A stretch of 32,095 bases of DNA. Origin: Candidatus Woesearchaeota archaeon (GTDB taxonomy: Archaea; Nanobdellota; Nanobdellia; Woesearchaeales; WJKL01). This document shows positions 1,029 through 32,095 of the stretch, one piece after another; the stretch's first letter is position 1, and the number at the start of each line of letters is the position of its first letter. Below the pieces are notes generated by a model. It was not told the DNA's origin and ran no database searches. It saw only the letters and a list, made by a program, of their open reading frames with translations. The stretch covers positions 1 to 32,095 of the forward strand of contig JAAOYC010000029.1 in assembly GCA_018221125.1 (NCBI GenBank), written 5' to 3'. The position numbers were made by a program, and so were the translations under genes.

Positions 1029-2564
1029 TTAAATGCTTTTATTTGTTAACTTGGCTTTCTTGATTATAAGTTCAGCTATTATCTTAGACTCTTCTTTTAT
1101 CTCTGCTTTTTCTATTTTTATTTTCTTTTTGAAGATTGGACCATCTATCATTAATGTTTCAAATTCTCCGCCTTCTCCAGCAATATTAAATCCTATTTTT
1201 TTATTTAGATTTACCAGCTTGTCAATGTTTTTGTCTGTTATTTCTTTATTAAGCCATGTTTTATCCAATCCATCTGCTGCAATCTTTGTTATTATGAATT
1301 TGAATTTGTTTTCAAGAATCTCTCTCATTTCAGCTTCCTGGTCCATGTGCCATAAAGGAGAGAAAACTTTTAGATTTAATTCTTGTGCAATCTTTTCAAT
1401 CCTTTCTCTTTGATAATTTGAAAACAATGCTCCTGTTGAGATTCCCTGTATCTTGTATTTTGTTTTTGCTTTTTTCAAAGCATCTTTTAAGTCTTTAAGC
1501 TCTTTTTCTTTTTCTCCTCTTGTTGTTTGCTCTAGCAAGGGGATTCCTATTGCTTTTGACTGCAGTTTTGTCATGCTTATTGCAGGAGTATGGAACATGT
1601 ATGAATCTGGATTTTTGCTTTTTAGTGTTATCATGCATTTTACATTGAAGTCTTGTTTTAACATCAAGTGTAAAGCGTAGATAGAATCTTTTCCAGAAGA
1701 AACCAATGCTCCAATATTAAATAATGAGTTTAGATAGTTTTTCTTGTATTTGAAACTGTGTTTTTTTGCTAGTTTTAGGATTGCTTTGTCAAAATAAGAG
1801 CCGTATTGCGCTGCTTTCTTTTTTCTCCAGGCTTTTTTTAATCCCAGTTGTTCTGCTGATTTTCTCAGTGCATATTTTTTATATCCTGATCTTATCTTTT
1901 CTTTTCCTGGAATCTGCATTGCTGCTGAGATCACTTTTGGATCTAAGAATGGAACCAAGACATTTACTTTTAGCTTTTTTGCAATTGCAAAGTCTCTAGT
2001 AAAATCACGTTGATGCATGTCTTTTAACCCTTTCCAGCATTCTTTGTTAATGTCTTTTGATAAAGTATGCCTTTCATAGCCTGCAAAGATCTCTTCTGAT
2101 CCTAAGCCAGAGAAAATATCTTTGATATTGTCTTTTTTTGCCAGTTTTATTGCTTCGTAGATAACAGAACCAACTCCAACTTTCATTGTATCAGGACCTA
2201 TTAACTTTACCATTGTTTTTATTGTCTTTTCTATGTCTTTTAATGAAAGAATTTTCTTTTTTAATCTGAAATTGTGTTTTTTTGCAACTTCTTGTGCTGA
2301 GATTATATCTGGAGAATCTTTTAATCCTACACAATAGCAGACAAAGTCTGCTTTTAGTTTTTTGCAGATGAATGCAATCAAAGTAGAGTCAATCCCTCCT
2401 GAGAATAATATTCCAAACCTCTTTTTTGGAATTCTAGATTCTACTGCTTTTAGGAATTCTTTTTTAAAATCAAGTTTTTTTTCTTTTTTTAGAGAATCAA
2501 CTAGTTTATTCCATTCTTTTTCATGAATAAGTTCATTGTTTTTTGTTATGTCTGCAATCTTCAT
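1029..2564 (-). CDS. Fusion protein: asparagine-synthase-type ATP-PPase domain (N) + Dph6-like diphthine-ammonia ligase domain (C)
   Basis: First PP-loop FSGGIDSTLIAF with asparagine-synthase-like FSGLGSEEIFAGYERH and VPFLDPKVI. Second PP-loop ALVSSGKDSIYALHLML followed by Dph6-like SPLWHMDQ and AGEGGEFETLMIDGPIF. No N-terminal glutaminase (Cys2) domain. Confidence 0.85.
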   Translation of the reverse strand: MKIADITKNNELIHEKEWNKLVDSLKKEKKLDFKKEFLKAVESRIPKKRFGILFSGGIDSTLIAFICKKLKADFVCYCVGLKDSPDIISAQEVAKKHNFRLKKKILSLKDIEKTIKTMVKLIGPDTMKVGVGSVIYEAIKLAKKDNIKDIFSGLGSEEIFAGYERHTLSKDINKECWKGLKDMHQRDFTRDFAIAKKLKVNVLVPFLDPKVISAAMQIPGKEKIRSGYKKYALRKSAEQLGLKKAWRKKKAAQYGSYFDKAILKLAKKHSFKYKKNYLNSLFNIGALVSSGKDSIYALHLMLKQDFNVKCMITLKSKNPDSYMFHTPAISMTKLQSKAIGIPLLEQTTRGEKEKELKDLKDALKKAKTKYKIQGISTGALFSNYQRERIEKIAQELNLKVFSPLWHMDQEAEMREILENKFKFIITKIAADGLDKTWLNKEITDKNIDKLVNLNKKIGFNIAGEGGEFETLMIDGPIFKKKIKIEKAEIKEESKIIAELIIKKAKLTNKSI

Positions 2565-2676
2565 ACTAGAAATAGTTTATTTATTGTTTAAAAACGTTTG
2601 TAAAATCAGAGAATCAGATTAAACAAATAACCTAATATTGATATCTGATGTACTGTTATTATTGGAATCCAAATTG

Positions 2677-4761
2677 CTACTTTTGCCTTTTAATTGATAA
2701 AAATCTAGCATTAACTGCAACTATTACTGTGCTTAAGGACATGAAAACTGCACCCATCGCAGGACTTAAAAGAATATCATACTTATACAGGATTCCAGCC
2801 GCCAAAGGAATTGCAAAGATGTTATAACCTGTTGCCCATAAAAGATTCTGCTTCATCTTTCCGTAAGTTGCTTTTGCTAATCCAATAACAGAAACAACAT
2901 CTCTTGGATCATTACTTACAAGAATAACATCTGCTGATTCAATTGCAACATCTGTTCCTGCTCCAATTGCAATGCCTACATCAGCCTGAGTTAAAGCAGG
3001 AGCATCATTGACTCCATCACCAACCATTGCAACTCTCAATCCTTTTTTCTGGATTTTTTTAATATTCTTAGATTTTTCATGAGGCAGAACTTCTGCAAAA
3101 AAATCATCCAATTCCAATTCTTTAGCAACCCATTGTGCAACCTGTTTGTTATCACCAGTCAGCATCATACATTTGATACCCATTGATTTTAGATTTTTTA
3201 TTGCCTCTTTTGATTCATCTCTTATCAAATCAGCTAATGCAACAGCCCCAATTAGTTTGTTTTCTAATAAAACATAAACAGTTGTTTTCCCCTGTTTTGA
3301 TAGTTCATCAACTTTCTTGTTTTCTATTTTTATCCTGTTTTCTTTTAGGTAATTAGGACCGACTACCCTGATTTGTTTATTATTAATTAATCCCTGTATA
3401 CCTTTTCCAGGAAGATTTAAGAATTTCTCAACCTTGATTAATCTTATCTTTTTCTCTTTGGCTTTCTTTATTACGCCTTTTGCTATCGGATTTTCTGAAT
3501 TTGCTTCTAATGATGCTGCATAAAGAAGTACTTCATCTTCTTTATAATTTCCCAATGGAATAATGTCTGTAACTCCAAATTCTCCTTTTGTTAGTGTTCC
3601 GGTTTTATCAAATACTATTGCATCTATTTTTCTTGCTTTTTCAAAAGAAGCCCTATTCCTTATTAACAATCCATTTTTTGCTGCTAATGAAGTTGAAACT
3701 GCTACAACCAATGGAACAGCCAAGCCTAATGCATGAGGGCAAGTTATGACCATTACAGTAACCATCCTTTCTATAGCAAAAGTCAAAGTTTCCTTAAATA
3801 GCAACCAAGCTACAAAAGTAATAGAACCTATTGAAATAGAAATTATGGTAAGCCATTTTGCTGCAGTGTTTGCCAAATCTTGTGTTTTGGATTTTGATTC
3901 CTGCGCTTCTCTAACAAGCCTGATTACTTGTGATAAGTATGATTTTTCTCCAGTGTTTGTTACTTTTATATGAATGGCTCCTTCTCCATTAACAGAACCC
4001 CCAATAACTTTATCCCCTTTCTTTTTGCTTACTGGTTTTGACTCTCCTGTAAGCATTGATTCATTAATATTTGATTCTCCTTTTATGATAATTCCATCAG
4101 AAGGTATTTTTTCTCCTGGCTTGACAAGAATAACATCTCCTTTAATTAGTTTAGAAATTGGAGTTTCTATTGTTTTGCCATTGGATTTTATAAGGTGTGC
4201 TTCAGAAGGCATCAGCTTTGCAAGGGCTTCTAATGCTTTTGATGCCCCCATAACAGAACGCATCTCAATCCAATGTCCCAAAAGCATGATATCAATTAAA
4301 GTGACTAACTCCCAAAAGAAAAATTTGCCTTTTAATCCAAAAACTACTGCACTGCTATAGACAAAAGCAACGGTTATTGCTAATGCAATCAAGGTCATCA
4401 TTCCAGGGAGTTTGTTTTTTAATTCAGTAAACAATCCTTTTAAGAATGGCCAACCACCATAAAAGAAAATAAAGGTAGCCAATATAAATAGTAGATATTT
4501 GTCTCCAGCAAAAGCAATTGTAAATCCTGCAAATTTCTGTATTAAAGGAGATAATAATAAAATTGGGATAGTTAAGACAACAGAAACAAAGAATCTTTTC
4601 TTGAAATCCTTGACCATCATTGCATGATGATCATGGTGGCTATGTTTAGGAGTAGAGGGGGATTTATCATCCCCTGCTTCAACAAGCTCAGCACCATCCA
4701 TAGTGCATTTTCCTGGCTTGTCATATTCCATTCCGCATTTTGGACATTTGTATTTTTCCAT
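2677..4761 (-). CDS. copB: CopB-type (P1B-3, CPH motif) copper-translocating P-type ATPase
   Basis: DKTGT, TGES, GDGVND, CPH motif (ITCPHALGLAVPL); N-terminal heavy-metal-binding YKCPKCGMEYDKPGKCTMDGAEL and a His-rich stretch KHSHHDHHA. Confidence 0.92.
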   Translation of the reverse strand: MEKYKCPKCGMEYDKPGKCTMDGAELVEAGDDKSPSTPKHSHHDHHAMMVKDFKKRFFVSVVLTIPILLLSPLIQKFAGFTIAFAGDKYLLFILATFIFFYGGWPFLKGLFTELKNKLPGMMTLIALAITVAFVYSSAVVFGLKGKFFFWELVTLIDIMLLGHWIEMRSVMGASKALEALAKLMPSEAHLIKSNGKTIETPISKLIKGDVILVKPGEKIPSDGIIIKGESNINESMLTGESKPVSKKKGDKVIGGSVNGEGAIHIKVTNTGEKSYLSQVIRLVREAQESKSKTQDLANTAAKWLTIISISIGSITFVAWLLFKETLTFAIERMVTVMVITCPHALGLAVPLVVAVSTSLAAKNGLLIRNRASFEKARKIDAIVFDKTGTLTKGEFGVTDIIPLGNYKEDEVLLYAASLEANSENPIAKGVIKKAKEKKIRLIKVEKFLNLPGKGIQGLINNKQIRVVGPNYLKENRIKIENKKVDELSKQGKTTVYVLLENKLIGAVALADLIRDESKEAIKNLKSMGIKCMMLTGDNKQVAQWVAKELELDDFFAEVLPHEKSKNIKKIQKKGLRVAMVGDGVNDAPALTQADVGIAIGAGTDVAIESADVILVSNDPRDVVSVIGLAKATYGKMKQNLLWATGYNIFAIPLAAGILYKYDILLSPAMGAVFMSLSTVIVAVNARFLSIKRQK

Positions 4762-5917: not shown

Positions 5918-7177
5918 TTATTCTATATTCCAGGGCTTTAATACTCTTTTAAGTGCGTCTTCTCCCTGCATATAGGATAAAAACAAGCCATAATTTGTAA
6001 ATGACACTCCAATGTTAATCAAATCCCTTATTCTTGCAAGAAGTTTTTGAGAAAATATCATGCATCCACCGCAGTGGATGATTAGTTTGTATTGCTCTAG
6101 TTTTTCATTTTCCTGAAATTCTCTTCCAAAGTTATGTTCTAGGATTACTCCTGGGAATTTTTTCTTAAAATAATTGGGAATCTGAACAGTGCCTATATCT
6201 TCTCCAATACGAGAATGATTGCATGCTTCAACAATCAATACCTTGTCCCCTTTTTTTAATTCTTTTAATGCTTTGATTCCTTGTGCAAAGAGTTTTAATC
6301 TTCCTCTGCTAAAGTAATTAATCATTGTTATAGAAAAGGTTGTTAATTGAATATTTTTTGGAGTCCATTTTGCCATTATATCCATTGCTTGTGAATCAGT
6401 AATAATTGCTTTTGGTCTTTTTCCAAGATTATCAACCAGGGCTAAGAATCTTTTCTTCTCTGCTTCAACTTCTTCTGAGTCCTTACTTCTTGCTTTTGCT
6501 AAATCCATTCTAAAGGAAACAGGGTAAGCCCAGTTTCTTGTTATATATTCTTCAGACATTGCCTGAGGTCTTAGGTATCTTCCAGGAGGTGTTTCAATAT
6601 CCATTGGAATATTCAAGATATAATATTCATCTTTTTCTAAAAATGGAAATAATTCTATTTTTTTGTTCACTGATTCAAAGTTTTCAAGAATAAAATTAAG
6701 AAGTGGCTGCCTGTAATTCTCATCTGTTGCTTTTATGCTTATTTTTTTATAAAATTTAAGCAGAGGCATTTGTTTTTCAATATCAGCTATTTTTTCCTCT
6801 TCTTTTTTGAATAAATTATAGATGATTAAGATTTGCTTGTTTGATTCTCTTGCTTTTTCTATTAGCTGTTTCTCTGTTTTGAAATCAGATGCTGAAGGAT
6901 TTATTATGACAAGAACCAAGTCACATTCTTTTAGATCTGAAAATGCCTTGTTTCTTTTCTTTTCTCCCAGCTCTCCAATTTCATCTAATCCTGCTGTGTC
7001 AAATAATTTTACAGGGCCTAGGTTGTGGATTTCCTGCAGAGTAATCTTAGTGTCTGCTGTTGTTCCAGGAGTGGAGTCTACAATTGATGTTTTCTGCTGA
7101 GTCAATAGATTCATCAGACTGCTTTTTCCAGAATTCATCTTTCCAAAGATTCCAATATGATCACGTTCAACTATCAT
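5918..7177 (-). CDS. hydF: [FeFe]-hydrogenase maturation GTPase HydF
   Basis: G1 GKMNSGKSSLMN, DTPGTT, DTAGLDE; C-terminal cluster ligands EACNHSRIGEDIGTVQIPNYF...HCGGCMIFSQ (CxH...HCxxC) characteristic of HydF. Confidence 0.95.
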   Translation of the reverse strand: MIVERDHIGIFGKMNSGKSSLMNLLTQQKTSIVDSTPGTTADTKITLQEIHNLGPVKLFDTAGLDEIGELGEKKRNKAFSDLKECDLVLVIINPSASDFKTEKQLIEKARESNKQILIIYNLFKKEEEKIADIEKQMPLLKFYKKISIKATDENYRQPLLNFILENFESVNKKIELFPFLEKDEYYILNIPMDIETPPGRYLRPQAMSEEYITRNWAYPVSFRMDLAKARSKDSEEVEAEKKRFLALVDNLGKRPKAIITDSQAMDIMAKWTPKNIQLTTFSITMINYFSRGRLKLFAQGIKALKELKKGDKVLIVEACNHSRIGEDIGTVQIPNYFKKKFPGVILEHNFGREFQENEKLEQYKLIIHCGGCMIFSQKLLARIRDLINIGVSFTNYGLFLSYMQGEDALKRVLKPWNIE

Positions 7178-8226
7178 TTTATTCTTTTAAAAAAGTGTTT
7201 TGAATCTCCCCATTCATTAAAGCCAACTTCTCTTCCTACAGATTTAATCCTATTTAATAAACATTCTCTGCAATCAGATGACTGCTCATCAATGCAGGGC
7301 TTTCCGTCATAAAGCTGATAATCTTTTCTGATTCTTGAAGGTGTTACCAAAGGCATGACAATATTTGCTCCGTATTGCAGCCCTTTTTCCCTTCCAATAG
7401 GATCCATAGCCTGCAATGCAGTAGTTGCTGCAATATTTACATCTTTCAACAGAATTCTTGCTGCTGCAATCATCTTTAATGAAAGATTAAATACTTGTTT
7501 TTTTCTTTTTTCCATTTCTTCTGTATGTATTTTCATAGGAGTTTGTTTATGGATTAGGTAGGGTCCCATTCCAATCATATCAATATCATATTCCTTGAAA
7601 AACAAGATATCATTTGCTAAGTCATCAATTGTCTGTCCTGGGATTCCAATCATCACTCCTGTTCCAACCTGATAACCTATTTGTTTTAAGATTCTTAAAC
7701 ATTCTTTTCTGTTCTCTAAGGTTTGAGTTTCTGGATGCAGTTTTTTATATAAGATTGGAGAAGTTGTCTCTATTCTTAATAAATATCTATGAGCTCCTGC
7801 ATCAAAGAATCTTTTGTAGGTTTCATGAGTTTGCTCTCCAACGCACAAAGTTATTCCTAATCCATTTGGCAGTTTTTCAGAGATTGTTTTTTCTTTTATT
7901 GTTTTTAAAACATCTTCAACAAAATCAATGAATTTATCATCTTTTTGCCCTCCTGACTGCAGAACCATAGAGCCATAACCATTATCAGCAGTCCATACTG
8001 CTATATCAATAATTTCTTGTTTTGTTAATGAAAATCTGTTGGATTCTTTATTGCTTTTTCTGATGCCGCAATAATAGCAGTCATTGATGCAGATGTTTGA
8101 GAATTCCAATAATCCTCTGTAATATACTTTTTCTCCTGAGTATTCTTTCATAACAGAATAAGCTTTTTTTCTAATTGATTCCAGATTATTTGACTCTAAA
8201 ATCCTGATTATTTCCTGTTTTTCCAT
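7174..8226 (-). CDS. hydE: [FeFe]-hydrogenase maturase HydE, radical SAM
   Basis: CINDCYYCGIR radical-SAM CX3CX2C; HydE/BioB-like YRGLLEFSNICINDCYYCGIR. The track ORF starts at 8277, but the internal ATG (MEKQEIIRILE) at 8226 lies just past the hydG stop and is the likelier start. Confidence 0.95.
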   Translation of the reverse strand: MEKQEIIRILESNNLESIRKKAYSVMKEYSGEKVYYRGLLEFSNICINDCYYCGIRKSNKESNRFSLTKQEIIDIAVWTADNGYGSMVLQSGGQKDDKFIDFVEDVLKTIKEKTISEKLPNGLGITLCVGEQTHETYKRFFDAGAHRYLLRIETTSPILYKKLHPETQTLENRKECLRILKQIGYQVGTGVMIGIPGQTIDDLANDILFFKEYDIDMIGMGPYLIHKQTPMKIHTEEMEKRKKQVFNLSLKMIAAARILLKDVNIAATTALQAMDPIGREKGLQYGANIVMPLVTPSRIRKDYQLYDGKPCIDEQSSDCRECLLNRIKSVGREVGFNEWGDSKHFFKRIK

Positions 8227-8227
8227 C

Positions 8228-9613
8228 TTAAAAGTATAAGTCTCTTTCTTTGTTTTTAATTTTTTCCAGATATTCAATTGTTTTGTCTCTTCTGTCTTTA
8301 TCCAGGATATTATCTAATTCTCTTTGTATTAGTTCTTCTCCTGCTTTTTTTGTCTCTTCATCTGCATAATCTTCAAGATATTCTTTCAAAGTTGTTAGTG
8401 CATTAGGAAGGCAGCGGAGTTTTATCAATCCTGGCTTTGCCAAGTCCATGAAATCTTTTCCTACTCTACCTAATCTATAACAGCCAGTGCAAAAGGAAGG
8501 GATAAAGCCTTGTTTTATTACAGATTTTATTATCTCTCCTGTTGTTCTTGTATCATTTAAAGTGAATTGTTCTTCATCTTCTGGATTGATTATTGCTTCT
8601 TTATATCCTCCTGGATTTGTTTTTGAGCCTGCGCTTATCTGAGAAATACCTAGATTAAAGATTTCTTTCCTTATTTCAGCAGATTCTCTTGTAGACAAAA
8701 TAATGCCCGTGTAAGGGACAGCTAATCTTAATACTGCAACTAGTTTTTTGAAATCTTCATCAGAAACAGGATTTGGGATGGTGATTGAGGCAGGAGCATT
8801 TTGAGCAGGCTCTATTCTTGGGATTGATATTGTATGAGGTCCAATTCCATAGGTTTTATTCAAATGATTTGCGTGCTGGAGCAGTGCAAGGACTTCAAAT
8901 TTGTAATTGTACAATCCAAATAATGCCCCTATTCCAACATCATTGATCTTATTTTTTAATGCTCTGTCCATAACATTTAATCTCCAATCATAATCTGATT
9001 TTTTTCCAGATGGATGCATTTTTTTGTATGTTTCTCTGTGATATGTTTCCTGGAAAACAGTATAAGTTCCTATTTTTACATTTTTTAATTTCTGAAACTC
9101 TTCTTTATCTAAAGGAGCTATCTCAATATTTATTCTTCTGATAGAATTGCCTTTTGAATCCTTTACAGAATAAACAGCTTCAATTGCTTTTAGAAAATAA
9201 TCAAACTCTCCATCTTCTCCCATTAACATCAATATTCTTTTATGGCCTTGTTCAAGAATTATCTTTGTTTCCTCTTTGATTTCATCAAGATTAAGGCTTC
9301 TTCTTTTCATGTTTTTGTTATCTGTTCTAAAACCACAGTAAAGGCAGTTGTTAGAGCAGTGATTTGAAGTGTATAATGGGGCAAAGAGAACAAGGCGATT
9401 TCCATAGATGTTTTCTTTTATCTTAAATGCTGTCTGAAAAAGCCTGTCTAATGTCTCTTTATCAGAGATGTTCAGCAAGGCAGCAACTTCTTTTAGTTCT
9501 AGGCCTTTTAGCAATAGAGCTTTGTCTAGGATATTATTAATCTCTTTTTTTGACACTTCTTTTGTTTGTTTTAAAATTTGATGTATAATCTCTTCATCAA
9601 TAAATTGGTTCAT
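8228..9613 (-). CDS. hydG: [FeFe]-hydrogenase maturase HydG, tyrosine lyase radical SAM
   Basis: CSNNCLYCGFR radical-SAM motif and C-terminal CTGCYRLGRVGKDFMDLAKPGLIKLRC, which is the canonical CX2CX22C auxiliary-cluster motif of HydG. Confidence 0.96.
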   Translation of the reverse strand: MNQFIDEEIIHQILKQTKEVSKKEINNILDKALLLKGLELKEVAALLNISDKETLDRLFQTAFKIKENIYGNRLVLFAPLYTSNHCSNNCLYCGFRTDNKNMKRRSLNLDEIKEETKIILEQGHKRILMLMGEDGEFDYFLKAIEAVYSVKDSKGNSIRRINIEIAPLDKEEFQKLKNVKIGTYTVFQETYHRETYKKMHPSGKKSDYDWRLNVMDRALKNKINDVGIGALFGLYNYKFEVLALLQHANHLNKTYGIGPHTISIPRIEPAQNAPASITIPNPVSDEDFKKLVAVLRLAVPYTGIILSTRESAEIRKEIFNLGISQISAGSKTNPGGYKEAIINPEDEEQFTLNDTRTTGEIIKSVIKQGFIPSFCTGCYRLGRVGKDFMDLAKPGLIKLRCLPNALTTLKEYLEDYADEETKKAGEELIQRELDNILDKDRRDKTIEYLEKIKNKERDLYF

Positions 9614-9651
9614 TTATTAAACTCAATAACCCCCTGTATATTAAATTAGCG

Positions 9652-9663
9652 TTAAATATTTAA
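9652..9663. promoter_or_regulatory. Candidate bidirectional promoter/operator: 12-bp perfect palindrome TTAAATATTTAA between divergent hydG and Lrp-like gene
   Basis: The palindrome starts 39 bp from the hydG ATG and ends 26 bp from the regulator ATG, suitable for archaeal TATA boxes in both directions. Flanked by the inverted repeat ATTAAACT (9616-9623) / AGTTTAAT (9681-9688). Confidence 0.5.
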
Positions 9664-9688
9664 ACTTATTATAATTATTTAGTTTAAT

Positions 9689-10132
9689 ATGACAACCATA
9701 ACAAAGAATGAAAAAAAGGTTTTGTCAATCTTGCTCGATAATGCCAAAACAACAGATTCGGAAATAGCTGCAAGGCTTAAGATAACTCCTCAAGGAGTTA
9801 GAAAAATCAGAATAAAACTGGAAAAAGAATACATCAGACAATATCGCACAATAATAAACTACAAAGAGTTTGGAATAAATGTTCTTGCAATTGCCCAGAT
9901 TAAGATAATGAATAAGGATTTATTAAATAATAAGCATATAATAGGTGCATTTGAGATTAATGAGGCAGATATAACACACATACTTATCCTGGGTTTTAAA
10001 TCACTTGAAGAGCTCGATGAATATAAGATAAAAATATCAAAAGACGCAGAGATTCAAAAGCTGAATATCCTATCCAATAAAGGGCTCTTAAAGAATTCTC
10101 CAAATGAATTGATTAAAGAGCATTTGAAATAG
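9689..10132 (+). CDS. Lrp/AsnC-like winged-helix transcriptional regulator
   Basis: N-terminal HTH KNEKKVLSILLDNAKTTDSEIAARLKITPQGVRKIRIKLEKEYIRQYRTIINYKEFGI, as in Lrp/AsnC; divergent from hydG. Confidence 0.75.
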   Translation: MTTITKNEKKVLSILLDNAKTTDSEIAARLKITPQGVRKIRIKLEKEYIRQYRTIINYKEFGINVLAIAQIKIMNKDLLNNKHIIGAFEINEADITHILILGFKSLEELDEYKIKISKDAEIQKLNILSNKGLLKNSPNELIKEHLK

Positions 10133-13160: not shown

Positions 13161-15101
13161 TCATTTTTTCCTTCCAATCCTTAACGCATTCAATATAACA
13201 GCTAAACTCAAGCCCATATCACCTACAGCTACTGCCAGCCATAATGTAATAATTCCCGGGAATGCTAAAATAGCAAAAGAACTTTTAATTAAAATGGAAA
13301 CAGAAACGTTTTGCTTTACAATTGACATTGTTTTCCTGCTCAAATCAATAAGGTAATTAATTTTTGATAAATCATCGTGCATCAATGCAATATCGGCTGT
13401 TTCAATCGCCACATCAGATCCCATGGCGCCCATTGCTATACCAACATGAGCTTTTGCCAGAGCAGGAGCGTCATTCACACCGTCGCCAACCATTACAACA
13501 TGCTCATATTTTTTCAATAATTTATCAATGATAGCAACTTTATCTTCTGGCAAAAGTTCTGCATAATATTCATCAATAGCAAGCTTTTTTGCAATAGCAT
13601 TTGCAACCCTCTCATTATCTCCTGTAAGCATTATTGTCTTAATTCCTCTGTTTTTTAATTCATTTATCGTGTTTAAAGAAGATTTCCTCACCTTATCCAT
13701 CAAGGTGATTATGCCAATGATTTGGCTGCTGTTTCCAACCAGCACAGTGGTTTTTCCTTTTTCTTCAAATCCCTTTATCAGCTTATCTGGGATAATTATG
13801 CTCTTCTTTTTAAATAAATTCCTGCTGCCAATAAAGAACACTTTTCTCCTGATGCTTCCTTTCAGCCCTTTTCCAGCTATAGACTTGAAATTGCAGACAT
13901 TAGCCAGCTTAATCCCTTTCTTTTTTGCACTTTCAAGTATAGCCTCAGCTAAAGGATGTTTTGATTTTGATTCCAGGCAGGCAGCTATCTGCAGGAGTTC
14001 TGGCTTGGAATATTTGTTTAGAGCAACAATATCTATTACTTCTGGCTTTCCTTCTGTAAGGGTTCCTGTTTTATCAAAGACCATTACTTTTACCTTTTTT
14101 ACTTCTTCAATAAAATTCCCTCCTTTGATTAGAACACCATTTTTTGCTGCAGAAGTGATACTAGAAACCATTGATACAGGAGTTGATATTGCCAGAGCGC
14201 ATGGACAGGAAATTACAAGCAGAACTAATGCCTTGTAGAACCATTCGCTGAACGGCAAGCCAAACACAAGAGTAGGAATAATCATTACAAGAGCTGCCAA
14301 AATTATAACAGTAGGAGTGTAATATTTTGCGAATTTATCAATAAAGACTTCTGTTTTGGATTTTTGTTTTTGAGCTTCATTAACAAGCTTTACAATCTTG
14401 GAAAGCGTAGTTTCGTCAGATTTTTTAGTTACTTTTATTTCAAGATACCCCTCTTCGTTTATTGTTCCTGCAAAGACATCATCTCCTTTTGCTTTAGAAA
14501 CAGGCATACTTTCTCCTGTTATAGGGGCCTGGTTTACTGATGAGGCGCCTTTGACCACTGTTCCATCTAAAGGTATTCTGTCACCTGGCCTGACTATGAG
14601 GATATCATCAATATTTACTTCATGAACATGAACTTTTATTTCATTTCCCTTTCTTTTAACAGCAGCTGTTTCTGGCGCAAGCTCCAAAAGCGAGGCTATT
14701 GATTTTCTTGCTCTTTCTGCTGCATAATCTTCCAAAAATTCTGCAATGAAAAAAAGAAATATTACAGCCGCTCCTTCTTCACCATGGCCTATTAAAAAAG
14801 CCCCGATTGCAGCAATACTTATCAAAAGATTCATATCAAATCTTATTTTCAAGATTGAGAAAAAACCCCTTTTTAGAATGTCATAACCTGCCACTATCAC
14901 AACAACAAAAAATAAAATCTGGGCAGTTAAATGTTGGTTTGTCAAAAATTCAAGATACAGGCCAATAGCTAATACAATGCCTGCCGCCAGCATGATCAAG
15001 ACTTTTTTTTGCTTCCATAAAGGCTCTTTTTCTTCAAGAATATCTGTTGCGCAGGAAGAACAGCTTTTTTCATTTTCATGATTATGTGTTTTGTCTTTCA
15101 T
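13161..15101 (-). CDS. P1B-type heavy-metal ATPase, probable Zn/Cd/Pb class
   Basis: CPC motif ISCPCALAISTPVSMV; DKTGTLTEG; TGESMPVSK; GDGVNDAPALA; short N-terminus with SCSSC rather than a full HMA domain. Confidence 0.9.
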   Translation of the reverse strand: MKDKTHNHENEKSCSSCATDILEEKEPLWKQKKVLIMLAAGIVLAIGLYLEFLTNQHLTAQILFFVVVIVAGYDILKRGFFSILKIRFDMNLLISIAAIGAFLIGHGEEGAAVIFLFFIAEFLEDYAAERARKSIASLLELAPETAAVKRKGNEIKVHVHEVNIDDILIVRPGDRIPLDGTVVKGASSVNQAPITGESMPVSKAKGDDVFAGTINEEGYLEIKVTKKSDETTLSKIVKLVNEAQKQKSKTEVFIDKFAKYYTPTVIILAALVMIIPTLVFGLPFSEWFYKALVLLVISCPCALAISTPVSMVSSITSAAKNGVLIKGGNFIEEVKKVKVMVFDKTGTLTEGKPEVIDIVALNKYSKPELLQIAACLESKSKHPLAEAILESAKKKGIKLANVCNFKSIAGKGLKGSIRRKVFFIGSRNLFKKKSIIIPDKLIKGFEEKGKTTVLVGNSSQIIGIITLMDKVRKSSLNTINELKNRGIKTIMLTGDNERVANAIAKKLAIDEYYAELLPEDKVAIIDKLLKKYEHVVMVGDGVNDAPALAKAHVGIAMGAMGSDVAIETADIALMHDDLSKINYLIDLSRKTMSIVKQNVSVSILIKSSFAILAFPGIITLWLAVAVGDMGLSLAVILNALRIGRKK

Positions 15102-17305: not shown

Positions 17306-19480
17306 TTATAATTTTTTCATTTTTAGTAGTAATGAATTTGATACAACTGAAACAGAGCTTAATGCCATTGCTCCTCCTGCAATCATTGGATTTAAAAATC
17401 CTAATGCTGCAATAGGGATTCCCAATGTGTTGTAGAATAAAGCCCAAAACATGTTTTGTCTTATCTTACTCATAGTCATTCTGCTTAGTTTTATTGCTGT
17501 AGGAACGTCTTCAAGGTCATTCCTCATTAATACAATATCTCCTGTTTCCATTGCAACATCTGTGCCTGAGCCCATAGCAATCCCAATATCTGCCTGAGCT
17601 AAAGCAGGAGAATCATTAATACCATCTCCAACCATTGCAACCTTTCCTTTTTTCTGAAGTTTTTTAACATAATTAGCTTTGTCTTCAGGAAGAACTTCTG
17701 CAAATACATGATTTATTCCAGCTTGTTTTGCAATTGCCTTAGCAGTACGTTCATTATCTCCTGTTATCATATAGACAAAGATTTTCATTTTCTGCAATTT
17801 TCTTACAGCAGCTCTAGAAGTTTCTTTTATTGTATCTGCTACAGCAACAATACCTTTTAGTTTTTTATTGCTTCCTAGAAGCATAACTGTTTTTCCTTCT
17901 TCTTCTAGGTTTTCTATATCTTCTTTAATCTTTGGAGAAATGCTAATATTATATTTTGCCATTAATTTATTATTTCCAAAATAGTATGTTTCCCTTCCTA
18001 GATCTGCACTAACTCCATGTCCTGGAATTGCTTTGAAATTAGCTGCTTTTTTTAATGTAATATTTTTATCTTTTGCTTCTTTAACAATTGATTCTGCTAA
18101 TGGATGTTCTGATAACTGTTCAATTGATGCTACTGTCTGCAGTAGTTTTTCTTTTGATCCTGGATTTAATGAAACAAGATTAGTAACAGAAGGAACACCT
18201 TTTGTTATTGTTCCTGTTTTATCAAATATAACTGCTTTTAATTTATGTGCTGTTTCTAATGAATCTCCTCCTTTGATTAGGATACCTTTTTTAGCTCCTT
18301 TTCCTGTTCCAACCATTATTGCAGTTGGTGTTGCTAATCCTAATGAACAAGGACATGCAATAACTAGTACAGAGACAGCTGCAATTAAACCAAATGAAAA
18401 TTCTTTAGCAAATCCAAATTTCCATGTGAGAAAGGTTCCAATTGCAATTAGAATAACAACAGGAACAAAGTAAGCAGAAATAGTGTCTGCAAATCTTTGA
18501 ATTGGTGCTTTTTTTCCTTGAGCATCTTCTATTAGTTTAATGATTTGAGATAATGTTGTGTTAGCCCCTACTTTTTCTGCTTTGAATACAAATGAGCCTG
18601 TCTTGTTGATTGTTGCTCCGATTACTTTATCTCCTTTTGACTTTTCTATTGGTATGGATTCTCCAGTGATCATGCTTTCATCAACAGAAGAATGTCCTTC
18701 TGTAAGAACCCCGTCAACAGGAACTTTTTCTCCAGGCTTAACTATTATTAAATCTCCTTCTTTAACATCATCAACAGGTATTTTAATCTCTTTATTGTAT
18801 TTTATAACAGTTGCAATTTTTGGAGAAAGATTCATCAATTTTTTTATTGCTTCTGATGTTTTTCCTTTTGCAATTGCTTCTAATAATTTTCCCATTACAA
18901 CTAATGTGATTAATATAGCAGATGCTTCAAAATACTGCCCCATTCCACCAGTTAGAACCACATAAACACTATAAAAATAAGCAGCACTTGTTCCTATTGC
19001 AACTAATGTATCCATGTTTGCTGATTTGTTCTTTAAAGCATTCCACATTCCTTTATAGAATTGCGCTCCAACAATAAATTGGACAGGTGTTGCTAATACC
19101 CACAAAATATATCCTTCGTAAGGAATATCTATCTTAAGCCACATGGATAATACCATGCTAATAACAAATGCAGGAACTGCAAACAATAAACTAAAATAAA
19201 ATAGTTTTTTTAATTTGCCTAATTCTTGTTTTCTTTTTTTAGCTTCTTTATTTGCATCTGTTTTTCCCTGAATTAAAGAACAAGTGTAACCTTTTTTTGT
19301 TATTGTTTTTAAAATATCTTCTTGTTTTAATTTTGAATTATCAAAATCTACTGTTGCTTTTTCTGTTGTTAGGTTGACTACTGCATTTTGAATTCCATCT
19401 AGTTTTTTTAGAGATCTTTCTACTAAAGTAACACAGCTTTGGCAGTGCATGCCTTTAATGTCAATATTTATTTTTTTCAT
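17306..19480 (-). CDS. copA: CopA-type Cu+ P1B-1 ATPase with N-terminal HMA domain
   Basis: [69 protein letters not shown]. Start placed at [13 protein letters not shown]. Confidence 0.93.
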
Positions 19481-19614
19481 ATTGCCTTTGTACAATCCTC
19501 ACAACAATAAATTTCATCTCTTCTTTTTATTGAATTTAATCCAATATCCATTCCGCAAGTCCTGCAGAATAATTCGCTTCCATAAGTAGAATCCTTGAAT
19601 TCGTCGCATTGCAT
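19477..19614 (-). CDS. TRASH-like Cys-rich miniprotein (45 aa), translationally coupled to copA
   Basis: Read by eye: [45 protein letters not shown]. CxxC...CxxxC layout as in TRASH metal-binding domains; TGA overlaps the copA ATG (ATGA). Not in track. Confidence 0.75.
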
Positions 19615-19620
19615 TTTTAT

Positions 19621-21075
19621 CTAACCTCCACAGCCACAGCCACCGCTTCCTCCTCCACCGCAAGATCCTGCTTTAAGTTTTGGAGCAGCAGCAAGTTCTT
19701 TTTGAACAGCAACATCATCGCTTATGTCAATATTATCTTTGACAATGAATACCCCTGGAATCATTCCCATCCAGCAGCTCCATGAAATCACCCCTTCTTT
19801 ATCTGGAGTAAATTCAATAACCTGTTCTCCTCTTTTGATGTCAAACTTTAATCCTAATTTTGGGACTTGTATGGCATTATTGCAGCCATTGATTTCTTTT
19901 CCATTGATTATCCATTTTACAGGAACCCCTTTTTTAAGGACAAATTTATCAGGCTCCCATCCATACCTATTTACTTCCATATTGATTATTTGATAGCCGT
20001 CTTCTATAGCGGCAACATTTCCTGTTATTGCATTATCACCTGCTGAAACAGAAGCGAATAAAGAATTTGTATCAAATCCTGTTCCTGTTAATGCCAATCC
20101 TCTATTGATCATGACTAATCCTAATACAATAACAATTGCTCCTGAGGCTTTTAGAATTTTGTGAGTTGCTTTGCTTGAGATAAAGCTTGTGAAGAATCCA
20201 AAACCAAGCATTACAGGAAGGGTTCCTAATGCAAATACAAATAATAGTTTTGCTCCTTCTAAAGCAGACCCTGTTCCTGCAGCCATTATATAGATAGCCT
20301 GCAGTGGGCCGCAAGCAATCATCAATCCATTTAATAATCCAATAATGAGGGGGCTGCTATGTTTTTGAGATTCTTTGCCCACAAATCTACTTAAAAAATG
20401 AGGTGTTTGAATTCTCACTTTCCTTAACCAAGGAAATAGATTAAGCATATTCAGGCCAAAGACAACTAAGAATAATCCTGCGATTATTCCTGCAACTCCC
20501 CTCATCATTGGAGTGAATGCGATTATTGATCCTAATAAACCAAATCCTGCTCCTATGATTGTGTATGAAAGTGTTTTTCCAACACCATACATTAAATGGG
20601 ATTTATGAGATTTTCTTCCTTGTTCAGCAGCTTTTGCAGTGTAGCTTACTACAAAACCACCGCACATACTTACACAATGGAATCCTGTCAGTAATCCAAC
20701 TAAAAACAATAAGCCATAGCCCATATTTGCACTTATTTCAGGAAGAGCAATTCCATCTGCCATTCTGAATATAAAATAACCAGCTACTAGAATTCCAATT
20801 ATTGCAAATGCGATTCCAAAGAATTTTTTATCAATAGTATAATGTTCTGATTCTTTATTTTCCAGAATTAAAGAGCAATCATATCCTTTTTCTTCAACAG
20901 CTTTGAAAATATCCCCTAAATTCGTTTTGTTTTCATCAAAAATTACTTCAACTGTTTCTGTTGGATAGTCTGCTTTAATGCTTTGAATTCCTTCCATATT
21001 TTCTGCACTTTTTTCTATCAATCTTTCACAACTTCCACAATGCATTCCTTTTGCTTTGAATTTTTTTGTTGTCAT
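19621..21075 (-). CDS. Fusion: HMA domain + TauE/SafE (UreH/DsbD-like) membrane domain + cupredoxin-like domain + Gly/Cys tail
   Basis: GMHCGSCERLIEKSA; GFHCVSMCGGFVVSY membrane core; cupredoxin-like WEPDKFVLKKGVPVKWIINGKEINGCNNAIQ...SCWMGMIPGVFIV; terminal CGGGGSGGCGCGG. Confidence 0.88.
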   Translation of the reverse strand: MTTKKFKAKGMHCGSCERLIEKSAENMEGIQSIKADYPTETVEVIFDENKTNLGDIFKAVEEKGYDCSLILENKESEHYTIDKKFFGIAFAIIGILVAGYFIFRMADGIALPEISANMGYGLLFLVGLLTGFHCVSMCGGFVVSYTAKAAEQGRKSHKSHLMYGVGKTLSYTIIGAGFGLLGSIIAFTPMMRGVAGIIAGLFLVVFGLNMLNLFPWLRKVRIQTPHFLSRFVGKESQKHSSPLIIGLLNGLMIACGPLQAIYIMAAGTGSALEGAKLLFVFALGTLPVMLGFGFFTSFISSKATHKILKASGAIVIVLGLVMINRGLALTGTGFDTNSLFASVSAGDNAITGNVAAIEDGYQIINMEVNRYGWEPDKFVLKKGVPVKWIINGKEINGCNNAIQVPKLGLKFDIKRGEQVIEFTPDKEGVISWSCWMGMIPGVFIVKDNIDISDDVAVQKELAAAPKLKAGSCGGGGSGGCGCGG

Positions 21076-31438: not shown

Positions 31439-32095
31439 TTATTGTGATTTCTTATAATACTTAATCAAAACATAACCAGCCACTATAACCATTACAATGC
31501 TTAGATACTGGCCCATGCTTAGGCCCAGTACTCTTGGGTCGTCTCTTAGGAAATCAGTTATGAATCTTCCAATGCCCATGAACAGGATGAAGTTCCAGAA
31601 AAGGAAACCATCTTTGAATTTCTTTATGTTTTTTAATGCAGCTAGATAGCCTAATAATATGAATCTTCCTGCTGATGCGTATAACTGCACTGGATGTCTG
31701 CAGCCTTCATAGCCTGGGAATTTAACACACCATCCTGCATTTGTTACTGTTCCAACCAGTTCTGCATTGATGAAGTTTGCAATCCTTCCTACTGCCAGTG
31801 CAAACAAACCAGGAAGAACCAGGATGTCTGCAAGTTTTAGAAATTTTATATTATATTTTTTGCAGAAAAAGTAAAGCACTAATGCTGCTCCTGCAAGACC
31901 TCCATGCAGAGATAATCCTCCTTTCCAGACTGCAAATATCTCCAATGGATTAGAGAAGTAATAAACAGGATTCCATATCAGGACTTCAAATAATCTTGCA
32001 CCTAAAATAACTCCAAGGATTATATACAGGATAAAGGATTCAACATCTTTTTTTGTCAGTTTTAATTCTTGTTTTTTCTTGTTCAGGACATACCA
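31439..32095 (-). CDS. lgt: Prolipoprotein diacylglyceryl transferase (Lgt), N-terminus beyond window edge
   Basis: LSLHGGLAGA, GRIANFINAELVG, RHPVQLYA, MGIGRFITDFLRDDPR. Frame stays open to 32095 (WYVLNKKKQELKLTKKDVESFILYIILGVILGARLFEVLIWNPVYYFSNPLEIFAVW). Confidence 0.9.
   Translation of the reverse strand, partial: WYVLNKKKQELKLTKKDVESFILYIILGVILGARLFEVLIWNPVYYFSNPLEIFAVWKGGLSLHGGLAGAALVLYFFCKKYNIKFLKLADILVLPGLFALAVGRIANFINAELVGTVTNAGWCVKFPGYEGCRHPVQLYASAGRFILLGYLAALKNIKKFKDGFLFWNFILFMGIGRFITDFLRDDPRVLGLSMGQYLSIVMVIVAGYVLIKYYKKSQ

Follow-up and report, generated by a model that had tools for sequence, protein, structure and literature searches.

The genes for all three [FeFe]-hydrogenase maturases, HydG, HydE and HydF, stand side by side in a stretch of apparently archaeal DNA in which no hydrogenase gene is seen, raising the question of what these maturases mature. 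The stretch analysed (the window, 32,095 bases) is contig C7 of G000, a draft MAG of 964,591 bases in 68 contigs with an estimated completeness of 78.6% and contamination of 0.25%. The genome belongs to one order with Woesearchaeota and Nanoarchaeota MAGs, and a search of G000 for a 16S rRNA gene returned no match to the 515F pattern. Elsewhere in the window, positions 31439–32095 encode Lgt, the prolipoprotein diacylglyceryl transferase (PF01790, E = 2e-54), which is found mostly in bacteria and here lies on an archaeal contig. Three metal-transporter-like P-type ATPases and one HMA/DsbD-like membrane/cupredoxin-like protein are encoded within 20 kb (2677–4761, 13161–15101, 17306–19495 and 19621–21075).

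The maturase genes are all on the minus strand, with hydG at 8228–9613 (TIGR03955, 524 bits against a cut-off of 312; phmmer to the solved HydG 4wcx, E = 8e-151), hydE at 7174–8226 (TIGR03956, 349 bits against 255; phmmer to 3cix/7o1p, E = 3e-85) and hydF at 5918–7177 (TIGR03918, 314 bits against 325.6; phmmer to 5kh0, E = 6e-56). Each protein aligns lengthwise with its solved homologues, and HydF, whose score falls just below the family cut-off, is nevertheless full length (4–405 of 419) with this family as its best match by far. HydG is a radical SAM tyrosine lyase whose product is an Fe(CO)2(CN)-cysteine synthon, and HydF is a GTPase and [4Fe-4S] scaffold that carries the [2Fe] unit. The HydG sequence contains CSNNCLYC (CX3CX2C) and a C-terminal CTGC-X22-C (CX2CX22C), HydE contains the radical SAM motif CINDCYYC (CX3CX2C), and HydF contains the P-loop GKMNSGKS and the CNH ... 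HCGGC motif. Translation of hydE likely begins with the ATG at position 8226, a single base past the hydG stop (TAA G ATG), and not with the TTG at 8277; the hydE and hydF genes share 4 bases. The contiguous, tightly spaced and motif-intact operon described in the sequence-only reading is therefore confirmed, and G000 hydGEF is a standard bacterial-type HydEFG set in a DPANN archaeon of the Woesearchaeota order.

That reading had also noted that the window holds no hydrogenase subunit, which agrees with the absence of a HydA gene there, and had supposed that a hydA, possibly of a minimal form, might lie elsewhere. A search of the rest of the genome found one full-length HydA, on contig C40 (C40:18280–19116, PF02906, E = 5.8e-95), and G000 gave no PF02906 or PF02256 match outside that contig. 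The first supposition is thus correct and the second is not, as the protein is a 558-aa group A HydA (ORF L002 17638–19314) that also carries the small-subunit domain PF02256 (2e-26) and is accompanied by HydB and HydC. It scores 774 bits against the NCBIfam family 'NADH-dependent [FeFe] hydrogenase, group A6' (cut-off 765) and aligns over its length with the bifurcating HydA1 8a6t. Its H-cluster loops L1, L2 and L3 read TTCCP, MPCTAKKFE and MACPGGCIGGGGQP. Upstream of hydA lie hydC (135 aa, NuoE-like, PF01257) and then hydB (372 aa, NuoF-like, PF01512/PF10589), so that both the loops and the NuoF-like and NuoE-like partners of a trimeric group A NADH-linked hydrogenase are present. Downstream follow a type I gapdh and then pgk, each with a 4-base overlap. 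The arrangement hydCBA–gap–pgk recurs in G150, and gap and pgk also lie downstream in G296. An ultraminimal archaeal HydA (~280–300 aa, without accessory clusters) was discarded as a candidate in view of the length of the G000 protein and its 2Fe-2S and 4Fe-4S domains, and the HydA on C40 rules out orphan maturases without a HydA.

The location of hydA and hydGEF on different contigs of a draft MAG would also fit a binning contaminant, the true genome having no HydA. We consider this extremely improbable, given the low contamination estimate, the grouping of this HydA with HydAs of the same order and the other genes of C40, which include those for CDP-archaeol synthase (CarS), Rpp21 and Elp3. 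These genes mark C40 as archaeal, and on their strength contamination was rejected; CarS and Rpp21, together with the placement of the genome, bear out the assignment of the window to an archaeon.

We infer, with a probability of about 0.8, that the HydGEF proteins of G000 mature the NADH-linked, H2-evolving HydABC of C40. The intact maturases, the HydA in the same genome, its linkage to gap and pgk, the archaeal character of C40 and the co-occurrence of HydG with HydA argue for this reading, and against it we counted the many genomes with full-length HydA in which no maturase was detected (31 of 35), the failure to find GcvH in G000, the 78.6% completeness of the MAG and the separate contigs. 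Following established work on these families, HydG would convert tyrosine to Fe(CO)2(CN)Cys, HydE would dimerise this product, and HydF would scaffold the [2Fe] unit and hand it over to apo-HydA. In the mature enzyme, HydC (NuoE-like) and HydB (a NuoF core) would draw electrons from NADH, with which HydA would reduce protons to H2. Since the hyd genes overlap those of gapdh and pgk, HydABC would most likely serve to reoxidise glycolytic NADH.

The subunits also bear on the route of electron flow. The 372-aa HydB of G000 has neither the N-terminal thioredoxin-like [2Fe-2S] domain nor the C-terminal ferredoxin clusters, whereas the HydB of G034 has both the thioredoxin-like N-terminal domain and the C-terminal ferredoxin domain. 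Similarly, the H-x3-C-x2-C-x5-C (His-Cys3) site is lost from the HydAs of the short-HydB group, that of G000 included, and is intact in most HydAs of the long-HydB group. According to a published analysis, a HydB/HoxF subunit without two FeS clusters is probably unable to bifurcate (PMC11406978). Taken together, a HydB without the extra domains and a HydA without the His-Cys3 site make simple NADH-dependent H2 evolution more likely than electron bifurcation for the G000 enzyme.

Divergent from hydG, on the plus strand at 9689–10132, lies a gene for an Lrp/AsnC-like winged-helix regulator (HTH_24; weak Lrp matches), and an Lrp-like gene occupies the same position in the window and in loci L061, L062, L106 and L107. 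Comparison of the five divergent intergenic regions revealed a conserved element on the minus strand at 9639–9666, AGTTTAAATATTTAACGCTAATTTAATA, comprising an archaeal TATA-like box and TTAACG; AGTTTAAATATTTAACG or close variants of it, followed by an AT-rich stretch, are common to the compared regions. The element is probably the hydG promoter and possibly an operator, and the Lrp-like protein probably controls hydGEF.

Phylogenies of HydE, HydF and HydG had been proposed as a check, and that of HydG (82 proteins) places the window HydG among seven DPANN sequences that form a clade (99/95), its closest relative being that of archaeon DeMMO1_7 (77% identical). This clade groups weakly (84/44) with Ignavibacteria/Kapabacteria, and one node further out (100/96) stands the HydG of the Olavius algarvensis spirochete endosymbiont. 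The position of the clade beside these bacteria suggests that G000 HydG was probably acquired from bacteria. The refutation named in the sequence-only reading, a bacterium with an ordinary hydABC, does not apply to G000, though its HydG looks bacterially acquired. HydA of G000, in its own tree, groups with those of G017, G352, G070, G129 and G150, all of its own order and class. The hydrogenase and the maturases therefore differ in history.

The two gene sets are also distributed very differently. Across a phylum sample of 371 genomes, HydA was found in 54, and HydG, counted only when above the family cut-off, in five (G000, G034, G081, G120 and G160). Searches of the HydA-positive genomes placed HydE above its cut-off in the same five, marginally and as a fusion in G160, and HydF in four, so that 4 of the 54 HydA-bearing genomes have HydEFG and HydA without maturases is the rule in the phylum. 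HydE, HydF and HydG were undetected in the remaining 50, of which about 18 have a short HydA (~280–310 aa), a form found in other families of the class. Among the 35 genomes with a full-length HydA, family searches detected none of the three maturases in 31, of which 23 are at least 90% complete, and the nearest HydA relatives of G000 (G017, G352 and G070) belong to this maturase-less group. HydA here may therefore not depend on HydEFG, or these HydAs may lack a complete H-cluster. The pattern may already have been noted in Greening et al. 2024. A 461-aa HydG-like protein below the cut-off is encoded at G074:C1:432924–434225 (L065), in a genome without HydA and without HydE or HydF above the cut-off.

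This distribution is what would be expected if the HydABC of the order were matured otherwise, by another maturase or with the cofactor of a partner cell, and hydGEF were a recent and dispensable acquisition. The rarity of HydEFG relative to HydA (5 against 54 genomes) agrees with that account, as do the HydA and HydG trees, which do not track each other, and the retention of the H-cluster loop cysteines by maturase-less HydAs, the four cysteines (the first of L1, that of L2 and both of L3) being conserved in 52 of 52 aligned HydAs. Against it, HydG is found mostly with HydA, co-occurring with the full-length form in four of the five HydG genomes of the sample (Fisher p = 3e-4), and several DPANN genomes have kept the hydGEF operon together with the divergent regulator and the promoter element, which suggests selection. 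We judge this account unlikely and prefer maturation of HydABC by HydGEF in G000. Clustering of the neighbours of maturase-less hydABC at 16 loci uncovered no common radical SAM candidate for a conserved alternative maturase; besides hydCBA, only a membrane-like protein of ~180–190 aa recurs widely (11 of 16 loci).

The supply of the bridging ligand is a further point. In vitro, this ligand is made from the aminomethyl-lipoyl-H-protein (PMC11736057). The defined maturation system includes SHMT. The H-protein, GcvH, the presumed donor of the bridge, is a pathway requirement of that defined system (PMC11736057) and not a formal criterion of the HydEFG families. GcvH (PF01597) was undetected in all 11 HydG-bearing archaeal genomes searched (G000 and ten others), in contrast to strong matches in 17 of 20 HydG-bearing bacterial genomes (Fisher p = 4e-6, with kinship ignored). 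A tblastn search over nearly all of G000, which is 78.6% complete, likewise found none. The order to which G000 belongs is not invisible to the PF01597 search, which found GcvH in its member G014. An SHMT gene lies between hydE and hydF on the plus strand in DeMMO1_7 (L106 3517–4740) and in the Woesearchaeota MAG M_DeepCast_400m_m2_277 (L115 2434–3711), and G000 has one SHMT, away from the hyd operon.

A different partnership of HydG was revealed in three DPANN relatives, where it adjoins a HypC–HydE fusion: G373 (L108 4613–5950, plus strand), G160 (L064 1662–2918, minus strand) and G376 (L148 2285–3568, plus strand). The N-terminal HypC domain (PF01455) matches with E of about 1e-14 in L108 and L148 and 4e-7 in L064, and the HydE-like radical SAM domain scores 242–254 bits against TIGR03956, just below the cut-off. 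The modelled structure of the L148 protein (mean pLDDT 84) has a barrel that matches T. maritima HydE (TM 0.93 by target length) and, at the N-terminus, a small beta domain. No HydF was found in G160 or within the L108 and L148 loci. Of 12 genomes tested, these three and no others have a [NiFe] large subunit (p = 0.005), and in G373 a single cluster holds HydG and the fusion together with the [NiFe] genes and a protease-like gene. HypD was found in none of the 22 genomes searched, and HypF gave weak domain matches only. The presence of the fusion and a [NiFe] hydrogenase where HypD and HypF were undetected suggests HydG-driven [NiFe] maturation in these relatives, in which the Fe–CO–CN unit made by HydG would be processed by the HydE and HypC parts of the fusion and delivered by them to the [NiFe] large subunit. 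The literature searched yielded nothing relevant on a link between HydG, HypC and [NiFe] hydrogenase.

Several observations adjoin these loci. On a bacterial contig (L166 1522–8895), HydG immediately adjoins a hypA-like gene and an operon for a group-4-like [NiFe] hydrogenase, as read from translations, with no HydE or HydF seen within its 8.9 kb, and this HydG joins those of L064, L148 and L144 in the HydG tree (100/97). The L064 fusion (about 1662–2945, minus strand) reads ICYAIPG where HypC proteins begin MCxxIPG, and no ATG, GTG or TTG lies between the upstream stop and this motif, pointing to an unusual start or a sequence error. In addition to a [NiFe] hydrogenase, G373 has an open frame of 358 aa that matches PF02906 (E = 1.2e-34; L197, G373:C18:4008–4688).

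These relatives make it conceivable that the G000 maturases, too, act on some protein other than HydA, for instance a [NiFe] hydrogenase. The sequence-only reading had raised another target, which apparently fits the three HypC–HydE genomes and fails for G000, whose HydE and HydF are canonical, whose HydA is present and in which no [NiFe] large subunit was matched; no other target is needed there, and the chance of one is very slight. A wider proposal, that DPANN HydG has been rewired, would combine an H-protein-free H-cluster with another bridge-carbon donor in G000 and its kin and, in the sister genomes, [NiFe] maturation by HydG and HypC–HydE in place of HypD and HypF; we advance it tentatively, considering it possible but rather doubtful.

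The window and C40 together provide a complete set of maturases and hydrogenase, found in a DPANN archaeon and ready to be expressed. The operon is a known kind of system with a standard target, and the questions that it exposes merit more attention. One is the maturation of [FeFe] hydrogenases in the numerous DPANN genomes with a HydA in which HydEFG went undetected, and another is the formation of the bridging dithiomethylamine ligand without H-protein. The HypC–HydE fusion beside HydG, in genomes with a [NiFe] hydrogenase in which HypD and HypF were undetected, suggests in turn a way of maturation that spans both hydrogenase classes.

Compared with HydEFG of Thermotoga maritima and other bacteria, the G000 set is alike in the full length of all three proteins, their motifs and their domain order, and differs in its archaeal host, the undetected GcvH and a HydF slightly below the family cut-off. 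The hydrogenase shares HydA, HydB-like and HydC-like subunits and the H-cluster loops with the trimeric group A HydABC of T. kivui, A. woodii and T. maritima, whereas its HydB is the NuoF core only, its HydA is without the His-Cys3 site and it probably does not bifurcate. [FeFe] hydrogenase genes have been described in archaea (Greening et al. 2024, as cited in PMC11406978) and noted in Woesearchaeota MAGs (PMC9723730), and G000 resembles these reports in having such genes in an archaeon of that group. The closest bacterial counterparts are the loci of Ignavibacteria/Kapabacteria and of the Olavius algarvensis spirochete endosymbiont, whose HydG is 65–69% identical to that of G000. These differ in being bacteria, with GcvH in 5 of 5 such genomes tested, and in the Ignavibacteria/Kapabacteria loci hydF was not seen beside hydG–hydE, unlike in G000. 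The endosymbiont (L116), in contrast, has the same hydG–hydE–hydF order as G000, with a HydF that is 72% identical.
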